Shown here piece after piece: positions 38,170 through 60,700 of a stretch of DNA of 64,000 nucleotides. Below the pieces are notes generated by a model. The model worked only from the letters and a program-made list of their open reading frames with translations. It was not told the DNA's origin and ran no database searches. The stretch is from Nymphaea colorata. Lineage: Eukaryota > Streptophyta > Magnoliopsida > Nymphaeales > Nymphaeaceae. The DNA is taken from contig NC_045138.2 of NCBI RefSeq assembly GCF_008831285.2, forward strand, positions 17,207,934 to 17,271,933, given 5' to 3'. Position 1 is the first letter of the stretch. Each line of letters opens with the position of its first letter. The position numbers and the translations under genes were made by a program.

Positions 38170-38803
38170 TAAAATTTTGTGACTAATCATGACGTAGGTG
38201 AATTTCTTGTTGGGTAGCGTTAAATGGGACGAGAAAGGCTCCGTGGTGGCAATTGCCCACATGTAGACACTGGAACCATTTGCAAACAGGGAAGCTGTTG
38301 TTAAGGCTGCACATGAGTCAAGCAAGCTTGAGTTGGGTCAGCCCGAGCTTTGACTAGACTCAACACTCTACTCGAACTTGATAGAATAAGCTCGAGTACA
38401 ACTTGACAATACAGCGTGGAGCTTGAGCTCGAGCTCAACTCATTTCTGTTAAGCATGTCTCGTTTCTTTTAAATAATTTAGCTTTTTAACTCGTTTAGTT
38501 GTTACTCATTTAACTATTTTCTTATTATTTTTCAACATTTGTTGTATAGTCGAATCGAGTAAAGTTTAAACAAATCCAATTCTTACAACTTGACTTGGAC
38601 TCGTTTGAGCGTACATTTGAAGTCAAGCTTGAGTTGAGCTTTGACAAGTGAGTTCAAGGCAAACTCGAGGCCGGCTCGACTTGTTGTGCAGCCCTACATA
38701 CTCAACACACTCAGATCACGCGCCATGGGTAAAAGCCGACCCTCGCAAATATCTATTGGCTAAAGGAGAAACATCCACGAATTTAATCAATGTCTTACGA
38801 AGG
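38170..38803 (+). pseudogene. HISN2 exon-2 pseudogene fragment, interrupted by a MITE
   Basis: 38170-38301 matches the 3' end of HISN2 intron 1 plus the beginning of exon 2 (source about 47897-48040), and 38710-38803 matches the continuation (source about 48050-48145). Shared words include GTGGTGGCAATTGCCCA, GTAGACACTGGA and CTAAAGGAGAAAC. Because intron sequence is retained, the copy arose at DNA level and not from mRNA. It is broken by a 14-bp deletion relative to exon 2, by small indels and by a 395-bp insertion, so no functional product is possible. Confidence 0.9.
38302..38696. mobile_element. CTCGAG-rich MITE inside the HISN2 fragment
   Basis: The ends read TAAGGCTGCACA and TGTGCAGCCCTA, inverted with one mismatch. 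The body is rich in GAGCTCGAG-type motifs like the hAT MITE at 24562-25024. I could not identify an intact 8-bp target duplication, so the end points may be a few bases off. Confidence 0.7.
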
Positions 38804-39374
38804 TTAAGCTTTCAATACCTGGGATTGTGGGACATCTTGGCATATGCTACCACAGTTGAGAGAGAGGGAGAGGGAACCTTTTCTTTAGTTTAAACAATCA
38901 TGCGATAGAGGAGTTAGAATTGATTCTGACGCTCTTTATGAGAGTCATCAAATTGTTCAACTGCAAGGTCAAATTTTGTCTTGTGGAAAACCCAGAAGTG
39001 CAATTATCTAGCAGATACATCTGCGAAAAGAGAACAGGGAGATCGAAGGAACCATGTTTGGCTGATAGGAATTAACTCTTAGCAAATCAAAAAACATAAT
39101 CCATTCTTCAGCAAAAAGAATGGAAGATGGAAGGGTCTTAGGTGGAAGGGACTTCTCGTCATCCCGTTTAGGAATAGATAGAGATATCCTGGATTAAGTC
39201 CCAGCCCACAAACTCCTGGGATTAGATTTCCATTGCACAACCTGAACATGAGAATTTGAAAAAGAGGCCATTAACTGAAAATAAACCAAAGTTTCTAATA
39301 AAGATTCTTTCTGTGTTTCTTTTGTTGCGCATCAAGAAGCTTCGTATTGCTCTGACACTACTCAACATTCTGTA
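38804..39374. other. Intergenic, no gene seen
   Basis: Nothing coding is supported. A few residues' worth of sequence near 38820-38850 faintly recalls the start of OSB exon 2, but this is too weak to call. Confidence 0.5.
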
Positions 39375-40098
39375 CTTAGAAGTAAGAAGAATAGCCGCTA
39401 TTTAACAATTGAAATGATAAACTACACCCAACTATTGAGCTCTTCCATTTGCCGAAGTTTACATCATTATAAGGATCATACCAAAACCTCAGAGAAAAAT
39501 GAAAAGAAAGAAACGTTGGGTGGAATTGGTGGAGAGAAATGTCTACCTGTAATGGCAGCAGAAACTCTGAATGAAGAATCAAATACCATAGATTCCTGGA
39601 TCATGTTATGCAGTGACCTGTAAATCTCAATCCATCATCTGTGACATTGCAGTTGGACTATAGCTTCCAACAAGCATGATCACTCCCCTAACAAACAAGG
39701 ATTTTTAGCACTGAGCATAATGCAGCTCTGTCAAAGTGATATTCTGTTCTTCCTAAATTAGAATAAAGCTATTCATGGATGTTGCAATGTTGGAGATAAG
39801 GTTGGTAATAATTAAGAAATCTGGACCAACACCCTTTAAAATTGGGAATGCCAATATCAAGCCATGGTTTCAAGTTCCCATAGCCAAGGCCAAGCACATG
39901 CTACCTACGATCTAGCACTGTAGTCATGTTATAGAAGATAACTAATCCCACAGGCAAGCAACCCACTTTCCATAACTGCCTTCTTTTGCTCTGCCTTGGA
40001 AATACTGCTTGAAAAGTGGAGGAAGAAACATTGGAAAAAGAAAAAGACAACCAAAGATGAAATAATTATGAACTTGCTCCTACAGTCTCTGGACTGTG
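39375..40098 (-). pseudogene. Truncated inverted copy of the GAUT last exon with flanking intron and 3' UTR
   Basis: In reverse complement this matches about 35165-35930 of the GAUT gene: the end of intron 8, exon 9 (here 39769-39990) and the 3' UTR. The acceptor AG and the final TAG are still recognisable. The exon is 222 bp instead of 276: exactly 54 bp is missing, removing the block before GNMKPW that contains the conserved HYD. A TGG codon has become TAG, giving a premature stop. Upstream exons are absent, so this is a dead fragment. Confidence 0.92.
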
Positions 40099-41157
40099 TA
40101 TATGTGTGTGTGTGTGTGTGTACACAATTTCATTCACCTGTGCATGCTTGAAGAAAAAGAGGATTCATGTTGTGATCTAAGATTTCACCTTAATGACGTT
40201 GAAAGCTTGTATACAGTCTTAAATTTCATTACAGTTATTGAATCTCAGTAGATCTATGTACTGCAGTTTGTGAATAAGTGTACATTGGTGCATCCTATCA
40301 TTAGTACCCAAATAGTAGAATCTCTATTCACCGGTGGTGGAGCTATATATGGGGAACGCCATGTGGGACTTTTCAAAAGGGGCCATAGAGCATTTTCAAA
40401 AGTTCTTACGTGTGAGAATGCAAACTTTTGGAAATCCAAAGGGGTTCCCCCATCCCTGTCATTCATCCAGCTAGGTGATTGGGCATGAGGCTTTTGATCT
40501 CTATCTCTCTTAGTACATACTACATAGCAATCTAAAATTGTAATGATGAAGTGTATTATCTCATTGTACAATGACTTAACATTATCATTGCACAGACTTA
40601 ATTAATATCTCATTGTAGCTAGATGGCTGCATTGGATCCAATATTTGAATTTGTTTGCATAACCAGAAGGAATTGGTCGACACATCCATTAAAAAGGCAG
40701 CTTCTTCCGAGATCCACCCCTTCAAGCCTGCCTGCGGAAGTGTTGAAGGCATCAGGCATCAGGCATCAGGCATAACCAAGTCCTAATCTCTATCAAACAC
40801 AAGGTTTAATACTCAAGTTTGAAGCATGTATAGGCCTCACAGTGTGGGGCACTGGGCTGGGCTTTTATGACTTTCCCGAGATAGGTGTGTTTATCACGAC
40901 AGGTTTTCCTTAGAATTTTATCAGATGAGCCAGAAACAATATATTGAAACCAAAGTTTAGAGGGATTAAAAACGAACTAGTATGACATTGTTGCACTCTT
41001 TACTGAGAACAAGAAGAAAGAAAAGGTTGAAAAGAAGTGGACAAAAGAAGACAATTATACAGGAAGCAGAGAGAATGGGTCCTTTTCTTGAAATTATGGT
41101 GATTTGTAACTTAGATTAATGCTTGTCCGTAACATATTTAAGACAAAATAGAAGAAT
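40099..41157. other. Intergenic, no gene seen
   Basis: A (TG)n tract lies at 40103-40121, and a GGCATCA word is tandemly repeated near 40750. Frames at 40254-40571 on both strands overlap each other and show no protein features. Confidence 0.55.
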
Positions 41158-42688
41158 GAGTTAAACTTCATGGTAATTAAGCCTGAAGTTGCACCCAAGT
41201 GATGACTTCCAGACCTCCTAGTACCTGTTGCAGTTAGAGTCAATGTGGTTCATCTCTAATAGTGTGAAGTAATTCAAGTATCTGGGTAGGCCTAGTGATA
41301 ACTTAAAAATGAAGGGTTTGTTTTGTTCCATAAAAGAGTTTGTTTTGTTCCATAAAAGAGTCATCGTCCGCCCTCAACAGGTTTTCTTCTGCACTTCTTC
41401 CCGATTAACCTATGTAAAAGGTCTCTAATGCAAAAAATCTGATTAAACTCCCATGGTCTTGTCATATAAAAAGCCAGTGATGCCTTGTTCTAATCCACGT
41501 TAAGCATAGGATTTCTGTTCAGATACCCCATGGGATATTCAGCTTTTTTAATGTCTTCAAATTTTCTCAAAGGGCCTAAACCCAGTGTGATTCCACAAAT
41601 ACTGAGAAGAACAATGCTGGTGGAGCTTCCAACCAGTTGCTTTTCAAGCTTCTGCAGTGAAGACCAGACTAGCATCTTCATGCTGCCAGTTTGAGAACTT
41701 ACAATTGGACCAAGCAATAACCTAAGCTTTTTCCATTTTCTGGCTTATTTTCATTGTAAAATTTATGTTTCAGAAGAATTCTCCTTTTCTGGGAAAAAAA
41801 ATCATCCTGTGAATGCGAGCATGCATGTGTGTGTGTGCATGGGTATATGTATGACCTCTGGTTTGTAATTTTCCAACTTCTATTTCTGTGCCAAAATGCC
41901 AGCCTGGGCGCGTTCATGATGGCCTGTTGATAACTGACGCGAAAGCTGCTAATATGTCTCTCCGAAGTTCAACATTATTAACGGTTTGGTGTAAACAAAT
42001 TGAGGAAGTAGGAACTAATAAAAAGGTTATAAAAAATTTCAATTAACAGGTGGGCAAATGTTACTGTATACAATGATCTATTCACCTGCATTTTACATCT
42101 ATCAAAATATTAAGAAATAGTCAGTTTTTATGTGTTAAGCTTATGCAAGAAACGTATCTTGATGAATGAGGCCTAAGGTACCCACTCGTAACCCATGTGG
42201 TTGACAGCACCGACACACAAAGGGCATAGGTGAGTCCTATGCTCAAATTCTGTGAAGTTAAATTTGAAATGACAACACTATTAAAAGCAAGTTTATCAGT
42301 GAGGTTGAAGAAAATATAAGAAGCGCATGCAGGAACCTTCAAGGCATGCGTCAAAATGATGTATTGCACAGAAGTAGCGTTTGAGAATTATTTGCGCCTA
42401 ACTTCACTGTTTCGCATTATGTATACCTTAAGTGAATCATATTACATATGGTTGTATATGTGCATGTCAGCATGCTTTTCCATCATTTGAGTTCCTGGAA
42501 CATCATGTCAATGTTTCATGAAAACATGCTCATGTAGGCCATATGAAAATTAACTGAGCTGTGTAGGCGAGGATTTGATTAAAGACATGCCATGGTTTTT
42601 TTTTTCATAACAAGCTGCATGAAAAACTTGCTCAATTTCTGTTGCTTCTGCAGGATCGGTCTGACATTTTGGAATGAGTTGGCTTATG
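41158..42688 (+). pseudogene. Partial copy of OSB intron 1 and the first bases of OSB exon 2
   Basis: 41158-41227 matches about 54034-54103, and 42077-42688 matches about 54104-54742. The copy therefore spans the 3' two-thirds of OSB intron 1, the acceptor TTCTGCAG and the opening codons of exon 2 (ACATTTTGGAATGAG). It stops abruptly inside the exon, where an inverted segment begins. An extra stretch of about 850 bp (41228-42076) separates the two matching parts. No OSB exon 1 or exons 3-5 are present here. Confidence 0.88.
41316..41359. repeat. 22-bp tandem duplication
   Basis: The unit GTTTGTTTTGTTCC plus CATAAAAGA is present twice in a row inside the extra segment of the OSB intron copy. 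Confidence 0.85.
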
Positions 42689-42803
42689 CGGTTGGAGATT
42701 TTGGAGTAATGATGTAGACACCAGAATTAGCGTATCATATGCCTGCTCGTGTCACATGAACCATAAGACGAAAATCATGCGTTCCTTCCACCCACGGAGC
42801 AAC
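42689..42803. repeat. Left arm of a 115-bp inverted repeat
   Basis: This segment is the reverse complement of 43118-43233 with a few mismatches and is fused directly to the truncated OSB exon-2 copy. It contains GTAATGATGTAGACACCAG and ACATGAACCATAAGAC. The intervening 314 bp has a 60-codon open frame of no recognised type. Confidence 0.9.
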
Positions 42804-43028
42804 TTTTCAGAAATGGATCAACTGTAGTTAATCAGAAATTATGTCTACCGAAAACAAACTGCTCCTGCAAGCAGGCAATGCATTTGGCCATACTGAAGGA
42901 TATTTGCTACATTATCTGCATCTTAATCATGAGAAATTATCAAAACTTTTGACTCATCTCTCTGGAGAGACTGCATTTTTGAGTCAAAGACAGCCAGCTG
43001 TGACTCAACCCATGAAGTCTTAAATTGT

Positions 43029-43432
43029 TTTCCAGAAGTTCAGCATATCATACAAAGGCGGTTCTTCGGATGGAATATCATTCAATGCTTTAATAGGCGA
43101 TTCAGTAAGAGGGAGAGGTTGCTCCGTGGGAGGAAGGAACACATGATTTTCGTCTTATGGTTCATGTGACAGGAGCAGGCATATGATACACTAATTCTGG
43201 TGTCTACCATCATTACTCCAAAAACTCCAACCGCACCTGAATAGAAATATGTTTCTGCACATTGATCTAGGGACTGCCTCCTACCTAATCCACTAAGATC
43301 CTGCATATTAGCATGGCTCCAGTATAATCAATCCTTCATATATTTGGATCACTGATGTTCATATACATAATAGTACCGCGGAAAAATTGTATTCCACATA
43401 CAAAGCTTTAGAATTGAAGAACGTACTATTTG
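43029..43432. repeat. Segmental duplicate of 55912-56248
   Basis: This direct-orientation copy shares GGTTCTTCGGATGGAATA, CTCCGTGGGAGGAAGGAAC, GGTGTCTACCATCATTACTC and TTAGAATTGAAGAACGT with the region just downstream of OSB. It has internal indels of up to about 65 bp. It lies 0.4 kb beyond the 3' end of the PPR gene. Confidence 0.92.
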
Positions 43433-43827
43433 ATTTAACTTGTTTCATCTAATGACTTCACCTTTCACGAGATATTTTTTCTGCGGACAATTCTGACCCG
43501 GTCCATGGTCTGATAAGAGACCACAACAACGTCTAGACAAAAGACGCATTCAAATTATAGATTCATCACTTCAGAACACCATGCTAAATTCGTCCCACAA
43601 ACAAGTGGGAGGTTGGACAGTCAAGCTTCACCATTTTAATCTCACACACCTGAACTTCCTTGCAAATGATAATCCAATGTGTATAGTCCGCAAATGGAAT
43701 TTATTTAGAAGATTGTGTGTGATTTCTCCGCTGTGCTTTCTGCTGGTTTTCCAAACCTATCTTGGCTTGCTGTATCTGTTGCCAGTCACATTAGTTCCTG
43801 ATTTCGAACATGATTCATTTGCGCCAC

Positions 43828-46011
43828 TCACCAATAATCATTGCAAGAACATGATCCATCTTTGAAATGATGAAACCTAGTTCTGTCGCGAACAATAATT
43901 TCTCTTCCAAAGATCTTCGATACTAACTTTGACACTTGGTGACAGTCGCTGCAAACTCTGAGGTTCTTCACCATACGGATAGTCTGTCCTGCATTTGAGT
44001 GGATGAGCCCGAAAGCGATTGCCAACTTCTCGCTGTGTCGAGCAAGTGCATTTTCTTTCTCTTCTTCGTCCAAATCAAGAAGCACTTTAGATGTATTTGG
44101 CTTATAACCCACCCTTTCTAACCTCCTACTCATCTCATCTAACATAAGGTAGATTTCTTTGGTTTGTGGATGTGTCTTATCTCCAACTATGAACTCATGA
44201 ACGAGGCCACCCATTTCTATGAACGTACAACCAGGAGGTTTCTTCACTCCTGAATTTTTCATCATCTTCCTCACCCTGACTGCATCTTCCCATCGACCAG
44301 CAGAGCAATACATGTTTGATTGCAGAACATATACACCACTGTTTGATGGGTCTAGTTCAATCAGTCGTTCGCCGACATCCACAGCCAGCTCCACGTTGCC
44401 ATGAACCTGGCAGCCACCCAGTAGAGCTCCCCAGACGAACCTGTCTGGCTCCAACGGCATTCCTTCTATGAATTCTTTTGCTTCTTGGAGCAACCCAGCA
44501 CGGCCCAGGAGATCAACCATGCAAGCGTAGTGCTCCATATCAGGTACAAGACCATACTGACTCCTCATTGCTCTAAAAAGCCTACGCCCTTCGTCAACTA
44601 AGCCTGCATGACTACACGCACATAAAACCCCTACAAATGTCACTCTGTTGGGCTTCACCCCTGCGAGTTGCATTGCAGAAAACTTCTCCAGAGCATCGTT
44701 TGCATGCCCATGCATGGCTAACCCAGTGATCATGGCAGTCCAGACCGATACATCCCGCTTTGAAGTTGATTCAAATACCTTTTTTGCATTGTCAATGCTG
44801 CCACATTTCGAGTACATGTCAATAAGTGCAGTCACCACAAACTCATCGATGGGGATCTTTTTCCTCTCCAGGTAAACATGTGCCCACATCCCCTGCAGCA
44901 ATGCACCCAAATCAGCACATGCAGACAGCACACTGAGCATGGTGATCTCGTTAGGTTTCACCTTAGAGATCAACATATCTTCAAATAGGCTCAATGTTTC
45001 CTTGCTCATCCGACTTTGAGCATATCCAGCCAACATTGAATTCCAAGTTACCAAATTTCTTTGAGGCATTTCATCGAAGACTTTCCTTGAGATTGTCAAG
45101 CAGCCACACTTTGCATACATATCAACCAAAGCAGTTTGTAGGACCACTCCAAGCTTCAGTCGTCTCTCTATTATCCATGAATGGAGCCGCTGTCCTGTTT
45201 CCAAATTCCCTGCTTGGGCACAGGCAGTAAGTGCAGTCACCATGGTCACTTCATCTGGCTCCACACCGGCATCCACCATCCGCTCGAACATAACAAGCGC
45301 CTGAGTGTAATCTTGAGATTGCACATAGCAATTGATCATGGTGTTCCAGCACACCAAGTCTCGCTGAGGCGTTTCATCAAATACTTTTTTCGCGGCCGCG
45401 TGATCGCCACAACTCGAATACATATGAATTAACGCATTCTGGATAAAACCATCTCCGCCAAGCCCGGCGGCGATCGCCCGGCCGTGAGTTTCCCGACCCC
45501 GAGGGAGCGATCCCAGTCGGGCACACGCCTTGATCAGAAACGTGAAAGTGTGGTGGTCGAATCCAGCTCCCGACTCCTGCGTTTCTCGGAAGAAGTCAAG
45601 AGCAAGCTCAGGGGTGGCGCTGCTGGCGTAGCCCCGGATGATGGTGTTGGTGATGAAGGTGTTGGGATTCTGAATCTGAGAGAAGACGAGGCGGGCGTAC
45701 TCAATGCTGCCGTGTGGCGAAATTGCGCAGAAAGCCACCACGCGACTGATGGGGAAGGTAAGTGAGGACAGATGGTGCCTGATCATGTTGCCATGGATCA
45801 CTTTGAGTGTCCCCATGTCCCTGCATCTCTCTAGAAGGAGGAGACATGGATGATGGGAGATGGAGATGGCTGACGTTCCCCATTTAGGTGCGAGTTCCGG
45901 TGGTGGTAGTGGTGGCGGTGGTAGTGGGAGCTTACAGTGGAGCAGCATGGGTGTCAAGGAGAGCGATAGATTGTCAGATTTGATGGTTTTGCAGAAACCA
46001 AGATTTGGCAT
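43828..46011 (-). CDS. PLS-class pentatricopeptide repeat protein with E and DYW domains, 727 aa, intronless
   Basis: Organelle-targeted RNA-binding protein; DYW proteins specify and catalyse C-to-U editing of plastid or mitochondrial transcripts. The PPR array begins near residue 110 and shows a regular P-L-S order, for example LVCWNTMINCYVQS, VTMVTALTACAQAG and TALVDMYAKCG, about 11-12 units. It is followed by the E/E+ region (from about FVWGALLGGC, then PGCTFIEMGG). The C-terminal DYW deaminase domain has HSEKLA, with the catalytic H and E, the zinc motif CSDCHQ and the exact ending CSCNDYW. The first ATG is used; a second Met at residue 22 could also start the protein. The N-terminus is proline-rich and no confident plastid or mitochondrial choice can be made. 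The RNA target and orthologue are not identifiable by eye. Confidence 0.95.
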   Translation of the reverse strand: MPNLGFCKTIKSDNLSLSLTPMLLHCKLPLPPPPLPPPELAPKWGTSAISISHHPCLLLLERCRDMGTLKVIHGNMIRHHLSSLTFPISRVVAFCAISPHGSIEYARLVFSQIQNPNTFITNTIIRGYASSATPELALDFFRETQESGAGFDHHTFTFLIKACARLGSLPRGRETHGRAIAAGLGGDGFIQNALIHMYSSCGDHAAAKKVFDETPQRDLVCWNTMINCYVQSQDYTQALVMFERMVDAGVEPDEVTMVTALTACAQAGNLETGQRLHSWIIERRLKLGVVLQTALVDMYAKCGCLTISRKVFDEMPQRNLVTWNSMLAGYAQSRMSKETLSLFEDMLISKVKPNEITMLSVLSACADLGALLQGMWAHVYLERKKIPIDEFVVTALIDMYSKCGSIDNAKKVFESTSKRDVSVWTAMITGLAMHGHANDALEKFSAMQLAGVKPNRVTFVGVLCACSHAGLVDEGRRLFRAMRSQYGLVPDMEHYACMVDLLGRAGLLQEAKEFIEGMPLEPDRFVWGALLGGCQVHGNVELAVDVGERLIELDPSNSGVYVLQSNMYCSAGRWEDAVRVRKMMKNSGVKKPPGCTFIEMGGLVHEFIVGDKTHPQTKEIYLMLDEMSRRLERVGYKPNTSKVLLDLDEEEKENALARHSEKLAIAFGLIHSNAGQTIRMVKNLRVCSDCHQVSKLVSKIFGREIIVRDRTRFHHFKDGSCSCNDYW

Positions 46012-46371
46012 TGAAGAGATCTGACGATCAAAATCATCGTCACCACTGTCATGTAGACTTTCATGAATTTGATCTTATCGGATACCAGATTTAGGCAAGA
46101 ATAAACGGCGCGAGTGACAGTACAACAGAGTGCAACTTGCAGAGGAGGGATGCAGGATCGTCACTAAAGAGGGCCTTAGTTCAAATCCTGACGACTGTTG
46201 CATCCTGCTCGAGTATATACTGACCAGAAAAGATCTGGTATTTGATGACATCGAAATCCAGATATTTACTTTACGATTTCAACGTTTTGATTGTTGTCTT
46301 TTTTCGAACACTAGATGCTTCAGATTTAACGTGGCTAGGTGCTGAAGAAATAGTTCAGGCCTCTGATTCTA

Positions 46372-46655
46372 CCATTTTCGACTCTAATTTTCATCAAGAA
46401 TGCTTCAACCAAAATTGCCCAAAAAAGGATTCTCCATGATCCCCTTTGGTATTGGTACAAATCATTGAAACTCAAATCGGATGTAGATTTCTCGTAGCCG
46501 CAACGATAGATGGTCGTAAGCTTTTTAAGATGAAACGGCATGCTTTTTTCCTGGAAAAGCAACAACTGTAAAACCCGGACTATACCAAATAATCTCTCTC
46601 TCTTTCTCATACGTATTTTGTAGACGAATCCGGGAAATCAAAATTCTCGCAATAT
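46372..46655. repeat. Segmental duplicate of 56247-56530
   Basis: Shared words include AAGAATGCTTCAACCAAAAT, CAACGATAGATGGTCGTA and GGGAAATCAAAATT. In the OSB-side copy this block directly follows the block matching 43029-43432, whereas here the PPR gene lies between them. Confidence 0.92.
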
Positions 46656-47361
46656 GTTCAAACTTCAAAGCATTGGTTTCTGTCAAGAACTGAAAAAAGT
46701 CCCTATGAATGTGGAAACAAATTTGTCGAGCAACGCTTATGGGTTCGTCAGTTTTCTCAGTAAATGTCTGCCTGCCTATTCCTAAAACTTCATTAAACTA
46801 ATCTTCTTTGCAACACACATATTAACTACTTTTCAATACATTATTAATTCCCTGACAGCTAAACCATGAAAAATTTCATTCAGAACCTGCTTTCCAACAT
46901 ACGACAGTTTCTCACAAATTTTAACTTTTTTCTTTTTGCCCTCGTCATCTTTTTCATATTTTTAACTTCAGGCATCTTTCTCAATATTTATATAAAACCA
47001 CCTTCCACAGATTTAGTTCAATTTTCTGCTCACTATCTTCGATTGCACTTCATTTAGGCACTTAATCTTTTTCTCATGATTTAGTCAATATATCGCTTAG
47101 AGCTCTCTTTCCTTCAGCATTTCCTTGGTCACAGGACTTTCAATAAGGTGAATAGATAGCAGCAAGACTGTCAACGTTTACAGTGACAACAATGCTAATA
47201 ACGTTAACGACGTATGTGTCATGTCTTGGTAATGTCCTTATTCTTGAAATTATTCTTCAAAGCAGTGCTTGCTCAATTAACATAATCCGTTTGTGAGCAC
47301 TCGCTCGCTAGAGTGCAATAATTTTAGTCGCGAGAGAGAGGGAGAAAGGGCGGCGAGCGCC
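46656..47361. other. Intergenic, promoter and leader of HISN2
   Basis: AT-rich sequence without a gene. The last 60 bp before the HISN2 start codon is GA-rich, as in many plant 5' leaders. Confidence 0.5.
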
Positions 47362-50040
47362 ATGGCTGCGTCCCTTTCTTGTCCCGGCAGAGCTTGGATC
47401 CAAGGTGGTTCTACGCTATCGTGGAACCCTAGAAAATCCACACTTGTATCTCCGTTCTTCGTGAAATCTCCGAGGAACTTCACGGTCGTGAGGATGGCCG
47501 TCTCCGTCGAGAAGAGTAACCAATCTCCCCTCGAGAGATACGAAGCTCACTTGGATGATGCCAAGGTATACACGCCCTCTTCTTTCCTTATTTCCATTTG
47601 AGATGAACGTTGGATCCCCATCGTTTAGTTCCTCGCAAGCCTCTGGCGTTCATCAGCTCTTCTCAGGGAGAACAAAGAAGGTGACCTAATTTGGCGTGGT
47701 CATAAGAATAGGGAGAATCTCTAATCTCGAACTCGTGAGGTTGCTAAGCCATTCATCTCCAATCAAATTGATGGATTTTTAGTCTTCAGTCCAAGCATTT
47801 TAGTCTTCAATCAAGTCCTGAATGATGTTTAGGCTTAAAGATTCTTGGGCGCCAATAATCTTTAGTCTAGTGCTTACCCAAAAAAATTATATTAAATTTT
47901 GTGATCAATCGTGATTACTGTAGGTGAATTTATTGTTGGATAGAATTAAATGGGATGACAAAGGCTTGGTGGTGGCAATTGCCCAAAATGTAGACACTGG
48001 AGCCATTCTGATGCAAGGTTTTGCAAACAGGGAGGCTGTGGCTACAACCCTCAGATCATGCAAAGCAACTTTTTACAGCCGATCCAGGCAGTCTCTATGG
48101 ACTAAAGGAGAAACCTCCATGAATTTTATCAATGTCCATGATGTCTTTCTTGATTGTGATCGGGATTCGGTGAGTGTTTTACGCTTCTTCTCTAAGGAAA
48201 CTCATATTCGTCTATGGTATGAAGCTGCCAGATAGAAGGTTGAGTTCGTTTACTCTTTCTGCAGATAATCTATTTTGGGAAGCCTGATGGACCAACTTGT
48301 CACACAGGTGCAGAAACCTGCTATTACACATCAGTTGCTGACGTGCTAAAACTTCCTCAGGTTTTTTATCTTAGCCTTTTACTGAGCTTCTTTTGTTAGA
48401 TTGAGATTCATGCGTTCTTAGATTGAATATACTGCTCTATGAAACGTTACTTTTCATCTTTCTACAGGTTGAGGAAAACAGGCTGGCGTTAACGACTTTG
48501 TACTCTCTTGAATCCACTATAGCTCAACGTAAAGCTGAAATTGTAGAGGCACAAAATGCCAAGCCTTCATGGACGAAGAAGCTATTGCTTGATGAAAAGC
48601 TACTGTGCTCTAAGATCAGGTATATATGTCTTCTTGTGCATAACGTTGGTGATTAAATTTCATTCCCTTCAAAATGAGAACATATGCATTTGGTTTGGGT
48701 TTAATATATTTTATCCATTTTGTCAATAATTTCCTTTCTTCCTTAGGGATTCGTTTTATGGATTTATTTGTTATGACTTGTGACTGTTACCACTTTCAGT
48801 TTGGTAGCTGAGCATTTTTTTGGTGTACTTGAGCCAAGTTCACATTATTAAATATTAACTAGATACTTTACGGATTTTTCAAAATGCCTGACCATGGTAT
48901 ATGGTAAAGTGTGACGGTGAAATCATATAGTCAAACTCTGTTGATGATTTTGCCAGGGCACCTCCTTCAAATGTAATACCAGAGACTTAGATGCATGTTT
49001 GAGGAAAATGAGAAAAATGAAGCAGTAATGGAACTATGTTAGTATGATTAGATAGCTGAGACAATGAATGAACGAACAAAAAGAAAAATGAAGAACGTAA
49101 GAGGTGAAGACTTAGCAGAAGAAAAATATTGTCGTGTAATTGATTAAAAATATTATAATTAGATATGCTTAAACTGCTAAAGTAACTTATCTTGAAAAAC
49201 ATCTAAAAGAAACAACCAAACAGAAGAAATCATAGCATTACACAAACACACACATGCACACCAAGGACGAAACTGTACACTAATCTTGGATATTAACGAC
49301 TCTTTAATGGAAAAAAAAGGAAGAAAACGAGATTTTCTAGCACATTGCTGGTATCATATAGTATATTCTTGTTGAGCTGTTCATTTTGAGGTCTGATTCA
49401 TCTTTGTTGTTCGAATTTCTAGCATTTGAGGCTAATAGATTTGGCCATTAGGATTCCTGTGAAATGTTGTTTATTTACGTGGAGAAGATTTCCACGATCT
49501 AACATAAAATTTGCAGCAGATGATTGAACTAGGTCCTCTACTTCCGGCTTCAGCTGTGGATAGGAATTGTGTGTGCAGAACCAGAGTACTTTGTTTACTC
49601 AATTCCTTTAAATCTTCATACCTCACAGATTATTAAGGTGGTTCAGGGAGTAGCTTATGCATCAGTAATTACGTATATGGTTCAAAATGCTCTTGTAGAA
49701 TACAACCATTGCAATCTCTAGTTAACAGAAAAGTACTCATTTGAGGGTTTTATTTCCTTCTGTCGATGGTTAAAGGTTACCTTCTTGTTACTAAATTGTA
49801 TTTCAGTTCTGATCATGGGATGTAGCTTTCTCCAGGGAAGAGGCCGGCGAGTTGTGCCAAACATTGGAAAATGCTGAAGAAAGTAAACGGACAGCATCGG
49901 AAATGGCAGATGTACTGTATCACTCAATGGTCCTGCTTGCAAATAAGGGCGTAAAGATGGAGGAAGTTCTTGCAGTCCTCAGAGAGAGATTCTCTCAGTC
50001 AGGTATTGAGGAAAAGAGCAGTAGAAAACCAAAGCACTGA
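47362..50040 (+). CDS. HISN2: Histidine biosynthesis bifunctional enzyme: phosphoribosyl-ATP pyrophosphohydrolase and phosphoribosyl-AMP cyclohydrolase, 300 aa
   Basis: HISN2 catalyses the second and third steps of histidine synthesis, PR-ATP to PR-AMP to ProFAR, in plastids. Exons are 47362-47565, 47924-48169, 48265-48360, 48468-48619 and 49836-50040 (903 bp, all GT-AG). Residues 1 to about 55 are Ser/Arg/Lys-rich, like a plastid transit peptide. The HisI cyclohydrolase domain (about 70-180) shows LMQGFANREA, SRSRQSLWTKGETSMNFINV, the metal site DCDRDS and GPTCHTG. The HisE domain (about 185-285) shows LYSLESTIAQRK, KIREEAGEL and EMADVLYH with the acidic metal ligands. Domain order I-E matches bacterial HisIE and plant HISN2. 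An upstream in-frame stretch lacks an ATG, so the start at 47362 is clear. Intron 4 is 1.2 kb. A broken copy of exon 2 lies near 38.2-38.8 kb. Confidence 0.95.
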
Positions 50041-50093
50041 GAACCCGGCTATAGACTAAAGTTATTGGTTTCACTCTGACCCTATGTTGTGCC

Positions 50094-50114
50094 TTCTTCT
50101 TCTTCTTCTTCTAG
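50094..50114. repeat. (CTT)n microsatellite in the HISN2 3' UTR
   Basis: A short run of CTT triplets about 55 bp after the stop codon. Confidence 0.85.
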
Positions 50115-50329
50115 TGAAAGGCTACAACCATGATGTATGTCTTATTTTGGACTTTGAAGTAATGCTATCAATGAAGCTTCTAAAACTTCGAACTCTGTGA
50201 TGCAAACTTTCTGGGAAGTGATGTCTTCAGTTCGAATGTGCATGTATGCTATACGGTTGTATATTTTCTGCAAAAATACGTCTGAACTTTGAACAGGCAG
50301 CAACCGAGCCTACTGGAGTTATGGTTATG

Positions 50330-50404
50330 TATTTGAGCATGCATCTTTACAGCATATTTGAGCATGCATCTTTACAGCATATTTGAGCATGCATCTTTAC
50401 AGCA
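50330..50404. repeat. Perfect three-copy 25-bp tandem repeat downstream of HISN2
   Basis: The unit TATTTGAGCATGCATC plus TTTACAGCA occurs three times without change at 50330, 50355 and 50380. Each carries the palindrome GCATGC. Confidence 0.95.
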
Positions 50405-53085
50405 CCTGGTTTTTTCCTTTGTGTGTGTGTGTGATTTGATCTAACCATGAGATTCACTTCAACATGCGGTATGTCATTTAGGTGCCTATGGTTAGTTTTC
50501 ACTTTGCTTGTTCTCAAACACTGTATATCTAAAGAAAATTTTGGTAAAGCATTCATCTTTTTACAAAAACTTGCGTTGCAAGGAGAAGTTGCTCAGATGG
50601 TGCTTCTGCAGAAAGATTCGTCCATAACAGCAATCATCAATGAGGTGAAAGTAAGCCTAATTATATCTATTGTTCATAAGAATAACTCCAAGAGAAGCCT
50701 AATTATATCTATTGTTCATAAGAGTAACTCCAAGAGAATCAAATTCTCTTGACACCAATTGGTGCCGTCTGAAGAACAGGAACGACACTTCATCAAGACA
50801 ACTAACTAACAAAAAATCAGTATATGTGACGTGGCCTTGGCTTCAATAGTCATGGCAAGTCTCTTCCCGTATCCACTGAAAGAACATGCCAAATCAAACC
50901 ACTTTCTGCACCTTTTATACCTGCCGAAACAGACACGTAGCTAAATTAATGTGTACATAACTAAATTAACTCCCACATGTAAGTCTTCATGTAACATGAC
51001 AAATTCAGCATGAAAGCATATAGGATTACAACTAAAACCTATCTGCATATGCAGTAGGCACACACACACACACGCAAGAGGATCCAAAAAGGGCCATTTT
51101 CCTGTTGTCTGTGCTTATGAACCTATTAAGCATTTTAATGGTCCTGTTAGTGACAATCTGTCAAGATACTTCATTTAGGGGATCAGATTTTTATTACCTT
51201 ATAAAAAAATGATAAAACTTTTCTGATGACCATCTTCTTTTCACAAAAATCGTAGAAAAAAATGGACGGCTCCATTGATGCAGGGTACCTCTGTTTTGGT
51301 GAAGTATTTTTATACATCCGTGATCATAATATTCTTAGAACATCTATTCCAAGCATATACACTTTCAAGAAACATAACCGTGTTCTATCAAACACTGTCC
51401 CACATCTTCCAAAAATCATTCCTCACATTTAAAATCTGAAGAGAAGTTTAAAAAAGCCAATAAAGAAGGAAAAAAATCTCAAATCAATAATCAACTACAC
51501 CCAATGAAGTGCTAGAAAGGCGGAGGAGGCTTGAACTTCAAATCATATCTTAACCAAATCTTTTATTGCATCAGCATGTTCCACTTTATTAACCATTTGG
51601 TATATTATAACATTTTTTACAGCCAAACATTGAAAATTAAATAGGTTGATGCAATATAAAATTTAGATGAAATGGAATTTCTATACCATTTGGAGATCAA
51701 GCCTTCTCCCTACCACTTGATGTAGTTGATGACTGCTTTGTGAATCTTTTTTTTTTCGACTCTTTCCATGTCTGTTGCTTTAGCCCACACACACGTGCGT
51801 GTGTGTGTGTCCGTGATTCTTCTCCTGCTTATTTCCCTCTCCCTTTGTGCAAGTTTTAAAATAGCTAGCGAGCACCCATGCAGACATCTTCACAAGTCCT
51901 GCCAATCTTAAAATTTCAGTCGCTTAAACTAATTAAGCTTGGTTGATTTGATTTTGAACCTTTATTTCAATACATGCATTCTGCTTCATGCATTTACCAG
52001 ATTTTTAAAAATTAACTATTGAAAAAAAAAGTAAAAAATTTACGTCAGACTTCAATTATAGCTTTAGAGGACTTTGTTTATAGGTGTAGATTCTTTGCCT
52101 CCTCTTCCTCCGAATCATGTTCTTCACGAGGCATGCACCTCCCTGCTCAAAGATACTCATCACAAGACCAGAACCCTGGTCTATTCAGCGCCTAATCCTG
52201 ACCAGAAAGAATTTGGAAACACAAACCTGCCCTGATAAATATGAGCAAACAATGGTTAGAACTAAACATTTTCCATCCAAAAGCGAGTTCTTGTTAAATG
52301 TTTTCTTACCACAGGCAGTCAAATAAATTGTCTTTGAAACGTAAGGCGCTCCTGTTACATTACTATTAGTTATGCGTACTTTGGTAAATTTTGAAACAAG
52401 AAGACAATGCCAAAAGATCTAATATGTCCAAAGGACATTCCTGTTAGAAACCCGATGTTAACATCAAAACTTATAAGTAGTGGCTGACCAAGTAACCACA
52501 CGATTACATTAAACCCACCGTTCTGCAGCAATAAGGGGTCAAATGCCGCTGCAGGGAGTACCAAAACCTTATAGAACATGGCAAATTTGCTTAAATGGTA
52601 GTTCTAAAACCACTACTTTTTTTCAATAAGTTGTGAACATTTGCTTTCCTCCTTATACATATATTAACTATATCGGAGTGAATAGCGTTTATGCATCATC
52701 CTTCTTATACCTACAAAAATCGAAATAGAGACACGGCAACTACACCCCTGCCCATAAAGCCTTCTTATTCATACATCGCTTGTTTTTTTTTTTTCTTTAC
52801 CTTGTTTTATTTACTGGTAAACTATGATCAAGCATGGACCGTTCTTCACACACTCATGTGTCCAAGATTAGGTCCGAAACCTTTTACTTTTATCGTGTCT
52901 TCGGGTCAATGTCTACCCAATCACGGCAATCCCTCCACAGCCTCAAAACCTCCTTTCATACTTTCCCATCTTAAACCCTTTGAGAGAGAGAGAGAGAGAG
53001 GGGGAGGGAGATATGGCCTAATCCTGTTGGTTCCATTGCTCTCTCGCCTCTCCATCTCCAAACCGAGCGACGGAGAGAGACGGAG
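50405..53085. other. Intergenic between HISN2 and OSB, no gene seen
   Basis: A 42-bp tandem duplication sits at 50653-50736 (unit beginning AAGCCTAATTATATC). Dinucleotide tracts lie at 51059-51073 (CA) and at 51786-51810 (CA then GT, a palindrome). A 158-codon frame at 52691-53167 runs over the OSB leader out of frame with OSB and is not protein-like. Confidence 0.55.
52982..53000. promoter_or_regulatory. GA-repeat in the OSB leader or promoter
   Basis: About nine GA units followed by G-rich sequence lie 85 bp before the OSB start codon. GA tracts at this position are common in plant core promoters and leaders; any role here is inference. Confidence 0.4.
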
Positions 53086-55527
53086 ATGGCATCCCTGTTT
53101 GGGCTTGCGGCTCCAGCCATATCAAAAATCATCTATGGAAGAAACCATCTTCCTCTCTCGCCTTTGAAGTCCAATTCCGCTGTCTCTCTCCAATTTACTG
53201 TGCAAAGGACGGATAAGCTTGGTCTTCGGTACAATTTTCCGAAATGCTCCGCCCGGTACACCACCGACTTCGTGCAGGAAGAACGAGTGGTCTATCCGCG
53301 GCCGTCTGAAATCCCTTGGCAGAAAGAGCTCGCCAATTCCGTCAATCTCATCGGTGTTGTTGGGACGCCTGTTCAAATTAAGCACCTGGATAGCGGGAAG
53401 GTTCTTGCTTGGACTCGACTTGCCGTCAAAACGTCGGCCACAGAGACACTCTGGTTGAGTTTTTTGTTCAAATGTTTTTCAGTCTCTGGCTTTTCTAGAT
53501 ACGACTTTGGGGAAGCTGTGAAAAATCCCCTTTTCTCGATAGTTTCGTTCCGCTTGTTATTCATGAATTGATATTGGTGTTGCTTTAGGCTTGTCAACTG
53601 CCATCAGCGAACGAATTAAAGAATATTTGTGATGGTTTCACCATGTTCTTAGCATGAGTTGCTCCTATCCGTTCATTCGTAGCAAGTGCCGATAGAATCT
53701 GATACTTTAGCACCTGTCTTTCTTTCTGTTTTCTTGTGTTTTTATGTAATGATAGAACTAAAGCTCATTATGCATTGCGTGCTACTCTACTATAAATGAA
53801 AATGTCTTGTATTTAGTCTAATTAAGATAGTATAGACTTGTTATATCTGGGAGTTCGTAGTTGGAAAATTTTGAACAAAGCATGACTTTATCTTAAAAAG
53901 TTGATCTAATCTTTTTATTCGTGTTATTTTGAAATCCAGAAGCGAATATAATTTATTACAATCGAAAATGAGCTTAAAAAATTGATAGCATTGCTGCCTC
54001 GAGAAATTTTGAGCAATTGGAGAAGAAAGCATAGAAGATGAACTTCATGATAATTAAGCCTGAAGTTGCGTCCGTAGTGACGATTTCTATACCTCCTAGT
54101 ATCTATTTACCTGTGTTTTACATCTATCAAAATATTAGGGAATACTCAGTTTTTATGTGCTAAAGCCTAAAACTTATGCAAAAAAATGTATCTTGATGAA
54201 TGAGGCCTATGGTACCAAGTCGTAATCCATGTGATTGACAGCATTGATACACAAAGGGCAAAGGTGAGTCCTTGGTGAAAATACTGTGAAGTTGAATTTG
54301 AATTGACAACACTATTATAAGCAAGCTTATCGGTTAGGTTGATAGTGAAATCGTGAAAGCATAAGAAGCGCATGCAGATTGCAGGGACCTTCAAGGCATG
54401 CATAAAAATGTATTGCACAGAAGTATATTTTGAGAATCATTTTCTCCAACTTCATTGTTTCACATTATGTATGTGTGTCATCCGTACCTTAAGAGAATCA
54501 TATTACACGTTTTATATATGTGTGCGAGCATGCTGTTTCCATCGTTTGAGTTCCTGGACCATCGTGTCAATGTTTCATGAAAATATGTTATTGAAAGCCA
54601 TATAGCAAAAACTGAGCTGTGTAGGCAAGGATTTGATTAGAGCAACGCCATTTGTTTTCCATTATAAGCTGCATGAAAAAGCTTGCTCAATTTCTGTTGC
54701 TTCTGCAGGATAGGTCTGACATTTTGGAATGAGTTGGCTTATGTGGCATTTCAGCACATGGAAAAAAGCCAGAGAATCTATGTATCTGGCAGGCTTGTAT
54801 CAGATGTAGTTAATGGAGATGATGATAAACCCCAAGCATACTACAAGGTTTTGTTCTACTTTCTGCTACCTTTATCTGCTCATTCATGTAGCGTTTCTCT
54901 GCATGGACTGTTAAAATGTTGCTTCTCTTGTAGGTTGTCGTCAATCAGCTAAATTTCATTGAGAAGAGCTCAGGTTCCTCGTTATATGAATCAGATAAAA
55001 ACTCCATGAACTCAGGTGCATGATTTTCTTCGCCCTTGAACCTTTCTTTTCTGAAGTCAGAACATGGTTGGAACTAGCCTTTCTTGGTCCCGAAAACTCT
55101 TTGTTTTGTTGGCTTTTAGGTGAAAGGCGTGGAACATATTCTGGAACTCAGACAGGCACGACTCAGGAGCTATGGCAAGCGTTTTTTGCCAACCCTTCTG
55201 AATGGTGGGATAACAGGAGCAGCAAGGTAGATGATCTCTCACCACATGCCTGCAATAGTGCACAGAGAGTAGCGTATGCTGGAGGTTCTAGCTTTAACCA
55301 TTATTTTGCTCTTGTTGTTGATGCAAAACTTGTCTTCACTTTTGCAGAGAAATCCTAAGTACCCAGATTTCAAGCACAAGGACACTGGAGAAGCTTTATG
55401 GATAGAAGGAAGGAACAATCCGTCATGGGTTAAGTCACAGCTGGCTGTCCTCGACTCAAAAATGCAGTCTCTCCAAAGAGACGAGTCAAATATGCAGTTT
55501 TTGTTCTCATCCAGCAAAGACCTCTAG
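53086..55527 (+). CDS. OSB organellar single-stranded DNA-binding protein, one PDF motif, 291 aa
   Basis: Plant-specific OSB proteins bind single-stranded DNA in mitochondria or plastids; Arabidopsis OSB1 suppresses recombination of mitochondrial DNA. Exons are 53086-53453, 54709-54847, 54934-55015, 55120-55226 and 55348-55527 (876 bp). The exon 1 donor is GTTGAG, a weaker form, but the frame across it (ETLW-IGLTFWNELA) is that of the family. Residues 1 to about 60 look like an organellar transit peptide. The SSB-like OB fold spans about 80-190 (VNLIGVVGTPVQIKHL to YYKVVVNQLNFI). A single C-terminal PDF motif follows at about 213-262: ELWQAFFANPSEWWDNR, then NPKYPDFKHK, GEALW. Some family members have two or three PDF motifs. 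Which paralogue (OSB1-4) cannot be decided by eye. Confidence 0.92.
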
Positions 55528-55911
55528 CCCTTCTGATTCCCTGGGAGCTCCTCTCATTTTTGCTCGCGGTTGGAAAAAAAAAAAAAACCTGCCATATTAA
55601 GATGATTTAGTTCAATGCGCACAGTTTTCCTCTGCATTTGTATATTTGTCATCTTTTATCGACCAGTATTAATCGTCTCTTATCAATTTGTTGGTGCCAA
55701 GTTTCTGTATAAAATTCTTAATTTTGGTTTTTGTTGGAGTAGCTCTGATTTGATCATATCAAGAAAATGTTGGCTTGTTGATTAACCTCATAAATTTTTG
55801 AATCTTTCCCATGATTATGACCCTGCTGAGTGAGTTATAGGACCAGGACATAATTCACGATTAACTAATAATTGATTCAAGTTCTGAAAAGTTAGGGTCT
55901 TTAAAATGCTT

Positions 55912-56530
55912 TCCAGAAGTTCAGCGTATCACGCAAGGCCGGTTCTTCGGATGGAATACCTTTTAACGCTTTAATAGGTGATTTAGTAAGAGAGAGGTTT
56001 CTCCGTGGGAGGAAGGAACACATGATTTTAGTCCTATGGTTCATGTGACACGAGCAGGCATGTATGGTACCCTAAGTCTGGTGTCTACCATCATTACTCC
56101 AAGAACCCCAATCTCACCTGAATAGAAATATGGTTCTGCACATTGATCGAGGGACTGCAACCGTTCATAATCCAATAAGTGCATAATAGTACTGCAGAAA
56201 AATTGTATTCCACGTACATAGCTTTAGAATTGAAGAACGTGCCATTTGCGACCCTCCAATTTTTACCAAGAATGCTTCAACCAAAATTGCCTAAAAAATG
56301 GATTCCCCATGACCCCTTAGATAAAGAAAAAAGCATTCAAATCACTGAAATTCCATTGAGGTGTGATTTCTTGTTAGACGCAACGATAGATGGTCGTAGG
56401 CTTTTAACACAGAACGACATACTTTTTCCTGAAAAAGTAACTGTAAAATCCAGATTGTACCAAATCATCTCTCTCTCTCTCATTTATTTTGTAGACAAAT
56501 CTGGGAAATCAAAATTATCGCGATATTTTA
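55912..56530. repeat. Segmental duplicate of the flanks of the PPR gene, without the PPR gene
   Basis: 55912-56248 matches 43029-43432 and 56247-56530 matches 46372-46655. The two blocks abut here, with a short CATTTG/CATTTTCG-like word at the junction. A 141-codon open frame (56179-56604) crosses the junction, but the corresponding frame in the other copy is broken and it is probably not a gene. Confidence 0.92.
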
Positions 56531-56544
56531 AGGCCTCTGAGAAA

Positions 56545-57781
56545 CGTGGTGGGTGGTTCGTAATAGGCAGTTTTTCCGGTAAATATTTTTTCACGACAAA
56601 ATGAGAACCAGCCGAGTACTGTAGAATTTGTCCAACAAGGTCGGACAACAAAAGACGATTGGAATTTTAGCGGTCAGGTTCATCTAATATTCAACAGAAC
56701 TGCATCACCAAGTTGCAGTCCACATAACCTTCCACTTTTCGGGGATGAACAGTGTATATATCGACCATAACTAAATGAATTACACAGCAATACGCACCGA
56801 TCATTCTATACTGCTGAAAATCAATTTCTTCCTCTTCACGGCTGCTGGCTATCGTTATCGGGGGCAGCTATGTGGTCTGCTTTCAGGAGCGGGGAGTCAC
56901 AAATTCATTTTTCGCTCTTTTCCAGCTTCGTTCAACTCGTGAGAGCCACAAATCGGCAGCGCCAGCGGCTACCACTAGAAAGCGAAGGAGGCCAGGGACA
57001 TAGTAGTGTACAGGAGGGACTTTTATGAAATCACAACCGAATCGACACCGGATACACGATTACCGAGGTCAGAACTGCCTTGATCTTTTACATTCTATCA
57101 GTTCACAAGATTACATTAACCGGTAATAATGAGAACATATACAAAAATTATTTCAAAAATTAAAAAACATTACGTCCCCTATAGCCCACATTTCCCATAG
57201 ACATGGGGCCTCAGAGCACGAACCAAATATTGCACGCATGAATGGAACTCCCTCTCACGGTGTGGTAATAGGTTTCACTCGACCAATACACTGAAAAAAC
57301 AACGGGAGAGAGAATATAAACCACCTTAATTATTAAGGCTGGAAACCACATACAAGCCTCACTAGTCACCAATTTGCACGTACATCTTGAACCAGAGGGC
57401 AGTGCTCAAAATTTTCAACACGAATTCCTCTATGAATCTACTGCATCCAAGTACTATTACATCAGTCACTGTACATCTGTAAATAATTCCAACCAATTTT
57501 ACAAAAACCCTTGCCTTTCACCATCATCTCTGTACATCCTACGACCGACTTCCACCCAATTCAACTCTTACCTTTTTGTTAGGGGTGCCCTCAATCTTCC
57601 AGTTTTAGCTGACGCTGGAAAACAGCGACTTTATTATACATCCATAGTCCGCTGCAAATGTATTCCAGAAGAACTGACGAATCGTGAAAAGAGATAATTG
57701 GGATCTAACGTTTAGTGCCTGCAGCATGACTGGTGAACAGTGAAAAAATACAGGATAATATTCATCTTCTGGTCTGTGATT
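56545..57781. other. Intergenic between OSB and MED14, no gene seen
   Basis: No supported coding exon. The part next to 57781 probably contains the MED14 3' UTR on the minus strand. Confidence 0.5.
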
Positions 57782-60700
57782 TCATGTTGCAGCAGATGTC
57801 ACATTTGCAGCAGAACCGTCTCTTAGTTGCTGCAGAGAGTTTTGAAGTGCCCGCAGCAAGAACTCTGCTATTATTCTTAATCTTCCCTGGTTGCCATCAA
57901 CACCAGCATTTCCACTTCCATAAACCTCTACTGCCCTTGTTACTCTCTGCTTGCATCTCTCCCAGTCTTCAAGGCGTGTCCAGCAAGCTCGCCCGCCATG
58001 ACTCCCTTCCATTCCCAGAAGAGACATTTGTGTTGTCTCGCCAAAAGTGTATCGCAATCTAATGGATACACAATATGGAAGCCAAGCTGCACCACCAGCA
58101 GCATTTATATGTGGTACATGAGTTGGATCCAAAACCAGGGTGAGGCCAAAATCAACAGAGCTATGTGCCCGGTCATAGTGAATATTACTTTTTGACACTC
58201 CGCGGCCAGAGTTTTCTGTGTGTTCATCTGCAGAAAAACCACCATGACTCTCGAGGCACAGCTCAATTTGAGGCTTCTGCATTCCAGCGGCATCCCCAAA
58301 TTGCCCCTGTAACAACCCTTTCTTCCAGGATATCAGCTTCAGGAATTCACGGAGAACCGAAACGGGAAGTGTTAGTAAGGTGATAAAAGAAGCTACACGA
58401 GATGCATCATAAGGCTCTGATGCTACACGCCTGCTAAAGTAGTCACAAATTTCTGCTATTTCAGATGGAGTGAGCTCCTCCTGCACATTGTGATTTTGTT
58501 GCTGCTGCTGTGGATTGTGAAACCGTTTGACACTAAGCACTTGGAGTAGAAGCTGCATACGATGCACACTGACAGCAAAAACATAACCCCTGCAACAGAA
58601 AATGAAAATGATGTTAGTATGACAAAAATAGACTATAATGAAATGAAAACAATTAAAACATAGGAGCATAACTCTTTTAAGTGAATGTCGGATGTGACCT
58701 GAGCCCCTGATCATTTCTTTTATGTGATATTCATAGAATGTAAGAAAAAATCCAAACGGTATAAGCATTAGTATTTTATGTGTGTGTGCTCTTGAAGAAT
58801 ACACACCTCAGCAAGAGACACACAATTTGCAAATAGGCATCAAAACAATCTATGTGCATGTATATGTGCATATGTGTGCCTAAGTCTGCTGAGTTTTATC
58901 TCTGTGCGCAACATCTTGCAGATTCCATAATATCCCACAACAGATGAGTAAATTTAGCTCCATATAGAGGTCAAAGAAAAGTGAGCTCTCACCTTCATTC
59001 CACTTAACCTAACAATATATTTATTTCAGTAAAAGATGAAAACCAAAACGTAACAGCTTCAGAAACACCAACCGTAGCATCCAGATGAAAACCTTGGTCT
59101 ACTGCATAACCAATCATTTATAGGAATGAGATGTCCAACCTCCCACTAGAGAGAACATTTTTTTCCCATTAAAGAAGATGTCTCTTTCTATACGAAGGAT
59201 TCATTGGTTTTTTACTATTTTGGATTTTGACATCTGCTTATGCACTTTGTACAATAAAATGTTCAATTCAAAGAACTGCACTTAGCAGCCCCTTCCCTGC
59301 ATATGAAACAGCTCTGCAGAAATAAATGGCAGAAACCTGAAACACTGGATTAATTCATTAGCCAGGAAGAGGCCTAGAAGTGCATTCACTTTAGCGGTGG
59401 GAATATTCTTTGTTTTGCCCTTCATCTCAGATTCCTGCCGATTCATGCGAGCAAAATGTCATTTATAACCACCTTAATTTCTAGTTTTATAAAGTTTAAA
59501 AATCAAAACAATAAACATTTCACAAGAACTTGGCAGTATAAGAAATGTCTGAATCAAAGATGACACTCTTGAAAAGAGAAGGTAAAGACCTATATCACAC
59601 AGACACTGGCCAAATGACAGCTGCACCCATGTTGAAATTCATGACACAGGTACAGACATGGGATACTGCTTGGAGACAGTCATAGCCGTGATCTGTGCAC
59701 TACACATATTTTATGCACTTTTTCATCTAATTTTGCATGCAGGCAACTATAACAGACTCCAATATTGTGTTTCCTATAAATCATTTACAACTCCATAGCC
59801 CTTTCTTCATTAGGTAAATTGTATTATCCTTTTTCATATCAAAACCTTTGAAACTGTAAATATTTCTATCGTATGTTGTTTACAACATAATGATTATTTC
59901 TTCACAGTTTTTGTTTCACACTCACACACCATGCCCACACTAATTTTTGTTAAACTGTTCTGTACATGAGTGTGCAGCATGTGACACAGGTAAAAACTAA
60001 CATGGGATTAGATGCTTACAAACAAAATCATTTGGACCAAAGAAAGCATCTCATATAGATGCACTTACCCCACAAAGAACCTTAAGGCTGGTTGCTCCAG
60101 GTCCAAATTCAAGAGTGTTCCTTCATTATCTTTCAAGATTGATCCAAGTATTTCCTTAATAATGTCAGGTAACTGAGTAAAGAGCCACAAGACTCCAAAA
60201 TATTTCAGGATATTTCTCAAGACCTTTTTCAGAGCAGCAAGAGGAACCCACCCTCCTCCATAGCCACCATCATCTCCAAGACCAATGAAAGCAGCGCTAC
60301 TTAGTTCTCCTCTAACTTGAGCCGGGACTGTAGTCCCAGATGGAAGGCGTACTGGCAAGCCTGAGTTTGTCGCACCCAAGTTTGAAGCTCCAAGCAGGCT
60401 GTTGCCTATTCGGTTCAAACTAACCCCCTGGTTTCCAATCATCGTACCAGACCTAGGAAATCCAAGAGAAGTGACTGTGTTGACTCGGCTACCAGTGGTG
60501 GCAGTGGGCTGTGAAGCCACAGAACTTAAGCTTGGATTTGTAGTGCTTGAATTCATGGAACCAATCACATTTGGTGCTCCCCCACTAAAGTTGGTATCAA
60601 AATTGTTCAACCCTTGAGCAACATGCTCCATTATGAATGGCCGAAATTGTGGACAAGGGAAGGATCCACCAGCAGTAGGACCACCCTTTGGAGGTGTTGC

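Follow-up and report, generated by a model that had tools for sequence, protein, structure and literature searches.

The 64,000-nucleotide stretch of Nymphaea colorata DNA analysed here, termed the window, corresponds to C1:17207934–17271933 of the 408-Mb genome. It contains a local, low-copy segmental duplication, of which one copy (A) carries an intact PPR-DYW gene that is absent from the other (B). In B, the sequences that flank the gene in A are joined directly to each other. The gene was probably lost from B by a microhomology-type deletion, i.e. by an ordinary fractionation event; the probability assigned to this reading, which is drawn from sequence comparison, is about 0.77. An earlier note on this DNA had proposed that presence or absence of the gene arose through local rearrangement, and the analysis supports this.

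Comparison of the window with itself shows the two related segments, A at ~41.14–46.66 kb and B at ~54.02–56.53 kb. The main homologous pieces display 79%–91% identity and keep their order and orientation: positions 42076–42691 of A align with 54101–54746 of B (80%, with gaps), 43020–43311 with 55901–56189 (86%), 43366–43432 with 56182–56248 (91%) and 46372–46658 with 56242–56529 (79%). A short piece is found 5′ of these (41164–41229 with 54041–54107, 84%). The best E-value, 4e-170, is far beyond chance. By sequence comparison, the left part of A (41140–43432, plus strand) is a relic of an OSB-type gene with its 3′ flank. This flank constitutes the left block (43020–43432, plus strand), which pairs with 55901–56248 and is interrupted in A by ~54 bp (43312–43365) that have no counterpart in B. 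The right block (46372–46658), which pairs with 56242–56529, is the intergenic region between the PPR gene and a HISN2-type gene. In A the two blocks are 2,939 bp apart, and the A-only segment between them (43433–46371) holds the PPR gene. In B (54023–56529, plus strand), which has neither the PPR gene nor the HISN2 coding region, the blocks abut with an overlap of 7 bp (56242–56248). The earlier note had described the recurring blocks and the missing 2.94-kb segment with coordinates that are right to about 10 bases; the duplication is wider than first noted and centres on a pair of OSB sequences, intact in B and broken in A. Positions 41230–42075 of A have no match in B or elsewhere. B does not extend past 56529, as 56529–57300 shows no resemblance to A positions 46658–47894 (z = −0.4).

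The listing of genome matches omits very common words, and all genome match counts given here are therefore lower bounds. At least 6 matches are listed for the left block (4 within the window, one of which is the block itself; the other 2 are short and on C7), at least 3 for the right block (its own site in A, B and a further place on C1) and at least 15 for the whole OSB region of B (itself included, with pieces on C2 and C7). These few matches argue against a dispersed repeat family, which the earlier note had named as the observation that would break the link to a segmental duplication. A and B are a local, low-copy segmental duplication, whose homology is collinear, is in several pieces and includes genic sequence. 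The divergence (K) between the copies is 0.134, with 26 indel events (23 not multiples of three) over 1,202 aligned sites.

The PPR gene (43828–46011, minus strand) is a single-exon open reading frame with the architecture PPR-E-E+-DYW, a chain length of 727 amino acids and the C-terminus CSCNDYW. Its matches to PPR_2 (8.5e-60), E_motif (1.2e-20), Eplus_motif (4.5e-9) and DYW_deaminase (2.6e-42, over profile positions 1–93 of 93) are all above the Pfam cut-off and place the protein among the PLS-class PPR-DYW proteins; the gene is thus real and intact, as had been claimed. The zinc/deaminase signature of PPR-DYW proteins consists of HxE...CxxC, followed by a terminal DYW, and the translation shows HSE...CSDC and the terminal DYW. 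Matches among PDB entries are a synthetic PPR-DYW protein (9kfx, 3.8e-226) and an At3g63370 chain (7o4e, 9.9e-43, query positions 594–727).

RFL clusters consist of P-class PPR genes without DYW, in tandem arrays of close paralogs. The gene does not fit a cluster of this type: DYW is present, and the other PPR matches listed all lie outside the window and reach at most 55% identity. Genome-wide, 104 PPR matches were obtained from the 61 of 1,073 first-look candidates that were scored. Apart from the gene itself, these matches include no close paralog: the best other gene shows 50% identity along most of its length, and partial matches reach at most 55%. A copy donated after the split of A and B should be near the 86%–91% identity of the left block, and no donor is seen among the scored matches, the best of which are at 50%–55%.

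With half of the A/B divergence (K = 0.134) on the A branch, a neutral open reading frame of this length would be expected to have gained 4.7 stop codons and ~21 frameshifts since the split. In simulation it remained without a stop in 47 of 5,000 runs, and the probability of no frameshift is ~8e-10; the estimate assumes neutral flanks and an equal length of both branches. Because the frame is open through a divergence expected to break a neutral one, the PPR gene in A is most likely kept by selection, and the copy in B, if present, would have been dispensable.

The join in B (56242–56248, plus strand) is formed by CCATTTG, a word common to the left and right blocks, and probably represents a deletion scar. 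The strict microhomology is ATTT; four or more base pairs are shared by 2.0% of 200,000 random breakpoint pairs. If the letters found in B and in a third copy described below are ancestral, the word is CCATTTG (7 bp), and seven or more base pairs are shared by 0.04% of random pairs. A short direct repeat is thus found at both ends of the A-only segment, with one copy left at the join, and the short word reported there by the earlier note is present. Left-side and right-side homology come within 7 bp of each other, as a single deletion would explain and two independent pastings would not. No poly-A or poly-T run of 8 or more is found within 60 bp of either end of the A-only segment (43433 and 46371, where the note had proposed to look for poly-A), and inspection of the ends by eye showed no terminal inverted repeat or Helitron-like ends. 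A retroposed or transposon-borne insertion was rejected on these grounds.

The right block occurs a third time (termed L001) at C1:17461985–17462464, minus strand, 208 kb from A; this copy covers window positions 46262–46725. It includes 110 bp (46262–46371) that lie on the upstream side of the PPR gene, are contiguous with the right block in A and in L001, are absent from B and serve as a marker in favour of a deletion. A search with positions 46000–46400 yielded an L001 match at 46277–46400 (85% identity, E-value = 9e-31) that runs across the 46371/46372 boundary. The divergence between A and L001 is similar on both sides of this boundary (K = 0.22 over 110 sites vs. 0.168–0.196 over 263–264 sites), as for one contiguous homologous piece. 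L001 therefore spans the right breakpoint as A does, and the arrangement of A at this point is not private to A but is seen in two of the three copies. In pairwise alignments of the right block, K is 0.163–0.168 for A and B, 0.168–0.196 for A and L001, and 0.18–0.20 for B and L001; A and B show the smallest divergence in all four scoring schemes, by little. By these values, the L001 copy would date from about the time of the A/B split or from before it. L001 is not a second whole unit: its neighbour is the repeat found at 36974–37411 of the window, and A positions 46700–47894 are unlike 36800–38172 (z = −0.1). This ~400-bp repeat has at least 40 genome matches listed (itself included), with 13 at C1:17.40–17.54 Mb and 5 at C1:6.54–6.57 Mb.

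The two genes that neighbour the PPR gene in the duplicated unit have also been affected. The OSB-type gene of B (53086–55527, plus strand) is intact, with five exons (53086–53453, 54709–54847, 54934–55015, 55120–55226 and 55348–55527) and GT-AG introns. It encodes 291 amino acids with an SSB domain (PF00436, 5.7e-11, above the Pfam cut-off); the bacterial SSB models of NCBIfam are below their cut-offs. OSB proteins combine an SSB-like domain with a C-terminal PDF motif, which PMC4166229 describes without giving its residues; a putative PDF motif is present in the protein. The left part of the duplicated unit is an OSB-type gene, encoding a putative organellar single-stranded DNA-binding protein. 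In the A relic, exon 1 and exons 3–4 are without a match, exon 2 retains only ~38 nt, with homology up to 42691, and a piece of exon 5 lies in inverted orientation (42948–43015). The inverted piece is part of a local rearrangement (42687–43235) in which 42687–42803 is an inverted near-copy (95%) of 43118–43235, with the exon-5 piece between them. More distant OSB-like matches are found on C3, with 45%–54% identity.

The HISN2-type gene (HisIE, phosphoribosyl-AMP cyclohydrolase/phosphoribosyl-ATP pyrophosphatase) is at 47362–50040, plus strand. The frames that carry its domains are open, and its start (47362) and exon joins were placed by eye. PRA-CH (PF01502, 1.4e-19) and PRA-PH (PF01503, 2.7e-10) are found on two frames of the window and identify the gene as HISN2. 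TIGR03188 is above its cut-off, and the HisIE equivalog NF002747 gives 140.5 bits with a 200-aa partial query, below the cut-off of 187. In the genome search, all three HISN2 exon pieces are matched only at the window locus, and otherwise three places on C1 match one piece. B keeps only a 287-bp intergenic block from upstream of HISN2. The losses are therefore complementary: this OSB gene is intact only in B, and the PPR and HISN2 genes are found only in A.

As OSB and HISN2 were lost in like manner, nothing in this case is specific to PPR genes. The framing of the earlier note, that of a family with rapid birth and death, accordingly fits less well: of the two redundant segments just one lacks the PPR gene, the open reading frame of this gene has been maintained, and no close PPR copy is found among the scored matches.

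The following course of events may be proposed. The ancestral segment would have had the order OSB (plus strand), PPR-DYW (minus strand) and upstream region of HISN2 (plus strand), and would have been copied locally. B would then have lost 2.9 kb with the PPR gene, possibly in a single event, by end-joining or by a short-repeat deletion between two CCATTTG-like words, and in A the OSB copy would have been broken by a deletion and an inversion. These losses would have been tolerated because one working copy of each gene remained.

The earlier note had left deletion and insertion as alternatives. A deletion in B is favoured because a third copy extends over the right breakpoint, no donor PPR gene was found among the scored matches and there is no poly-A or poly-T at the ends; the direction of the change is argued from these features. 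The word at the join, the complementary losses and the maintained PPR reading frame add weight to it. An insertion seems quite unlikely. It would mean that an OSB-HISN2 region without the PPR gene was duplicated and that the 2.94-kb segment was later pasted into A, e.g. as filler in double-strand-break repair, with the third copy derived from A after the insertion. Three things are then needed (the insertion, a later third copy and loss of the donor); the third copy includes sequence from the PPR side and, by the pairwise alignments, does not postdate the A/B split, and the absence of a close paralog among the scored matches, of poly-A/T and, by eye, of inverted-repeat or Helitron-like ends also argues against it. 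In favour of an insertion, PMC1892557 reports PPR genes to be frequently non-syntenic when related plant regions are compared, and the 7-bp imperfect repeat that flanks the A-only segment (CTATTTG/CCATTTT) could be read as, or could mimic, a target-site duplication. Several further observations weigh against a deletion in B. In a MAFFT alignment of 249 columns, A and L001 are the closest pair in 1,627 of 2,000 bootstraps (B and L001 in 225, A and B in 148), so that an insertion on the common stem of A and L001 could explain the data; the tree of the three copies is nearly a star, which makes its root a matter of deduction. L001 has no PPR coding trace, and thus supports ancestral presence of the segment at the right breakpoint only. 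No third copy crosses the left breakpoint: the 11 other matches are all in the DYW-coding end, from window position 43823. The strict microhomology at the join is just 4 bp, and a 2.9-kb deletion is longer than the 5–178 bp usual in maize fractionation, so that several steps may be hidden. On the side of a deletion, and in line with the lack of a donor, window positions 43433–43822 and 46000–46261 matched no other genomic place (46262 is the exact limit of L001). A tblastn search for PPR relics gave no match in the related loci L001–L004 (E-value up to 1) or L005–L007 (E-value up to 0.01).

It may also be considered that B never had the PPR gene and acquired its right block separately, as a small piece of the PPR-HISN2 intergenic region that was inserted behind OSB. 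A 464-bp piece of the same region does sit elsewhere, at L001, 208 kb away, and fragments of HISN2 and OSB are found at further loci. By one alignment method the right block was also two-fold and significantly more divergent (Fisher p = 1.6e-5), but the alignment procedure accounts for most of this gap: when a single aligner is applied to every block, the gap is non-significant (p = 0.085–0.14 in 4 settings), and the right block is still somewhat more divergent (K = 0.163–0.168 vs. 0.097–0.135). Such a mosaic appears very unlikely, as the end of the left-block homology would have to fall by coincidence within 7 bp of the right-block start, in the order and orientation of A. An assembly artefact, with A or B a mis-assembled haplotype copy, is hardly credible given the divergence and the 26 indel events between the copies, and A has sequence found nowhere else. 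Beyond the choice between deletion and these alternatives, it is conceivable, if doubtful, that the OSB-PPR-HISN2 locus has served as a local donor hotspot, pieces of which (the PPR-HISN2 intergenic region, the 3′ half of HISN2, OSB introns and exons) were copied repeatedly by template-switching repair and spread over several hundred kb on the same chromosome and to two others. If this were so, presence or absence of the PPR gene would be one outcome, and individuals or close species might differ in whether they carry the gene.

Other fragments related to the OSB and HISN2 genes were observed. On C2, a fragment of the OSB intron 1/exon 2–3 region is split by ~22.3 kb (L003 positions 5346–4840, C2:20096839–20097345; L002 positions 5039–4769, C2:20074280–20074538). 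Its halves overlap by 5 bp (window 54751–54755), the pattern that a retrotransposon insertion would leave if it duplicated a 5-bp target site. On C7, L004 positions 4662–5273 (C7:8150161–8150772) preserve, as a relic, the last part of OSB exon 5 with the 3′ flank, to the equivalent of window position 43187; no PPR match is present in the 10 kb around this relic. Three copies of HISN2 3′ fragments (L005, L006 and L007, C1:16.83–16.87 Mb) are found ~380–420 kb away, with 75%–87% identity to window positions 48439–50535, and the longer pieces shared by the segments that hold them are 84%–96% alike among themselves. Within the window, 38172–38303 and 38707–38794 are degenerate HISN2 exon fragments (75%–76% identity to 47894–48136), a second local HISN2 relic.

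Elsewhere in the window, the 3′ end of a glycosyltransferase-8 gene is duplicated in inverted orientation (35165–36439 and 38858–40095, 72%); Pfam supports family 8, and the gene is presumably GAUT-like. Long minus-strand frames at 57782–63859 have no Pfam match and may correspond to Mediator subunit 14 (MED14).

Fractionation in maize is described in PMC2893956 as proceeding by short deletions, usually of 5–178 bp with longer ones infrequent, and with repeats of 3–24 bp at the joins. The present case is like that description in that a redundant gene is gone from one duplicate, a short repeat is found at the join and the other copy is kept. It is unlike it in that the duplication is local and does not stem from tetraploidy, the loss is a single one of 2.9 kb, and there is one case only. 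Many of the non-syntenic PPR cases described in PMC1892557 come from the PPR clusters of Arabidopsis chromosome 1 and from the radish Rfo region. As in those cases, a PPR gene is found here in one of two related regions, with neighbouring sequence common to both, but this is a single DYW-class gene whose neighbours OSB and HISN2 were lost likewise. The small pieces of the locus found elsewhere (L001, C1:16.83–16.87 Mb, C2 and C7) are reminiscent of gene movement in which breaks are repaired with foreign DNA (Wicker et al. 2010, as cited in PMC3503983); unlike in such movement, there is no evidence that the PPR gene itself has moved.

The locus provides a base-resolved case in which a small local duplication was followed by complementary loss of genes; the join is still readable, and a third copy helps to orient the change. 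It indicates that a DYW-class PPR gene can differ between copies of a neighbourhood without a PPR-specific mechanism. This is an instructive but ordinary case of the pruning of duplicated genes in plants, and it changes no general view.

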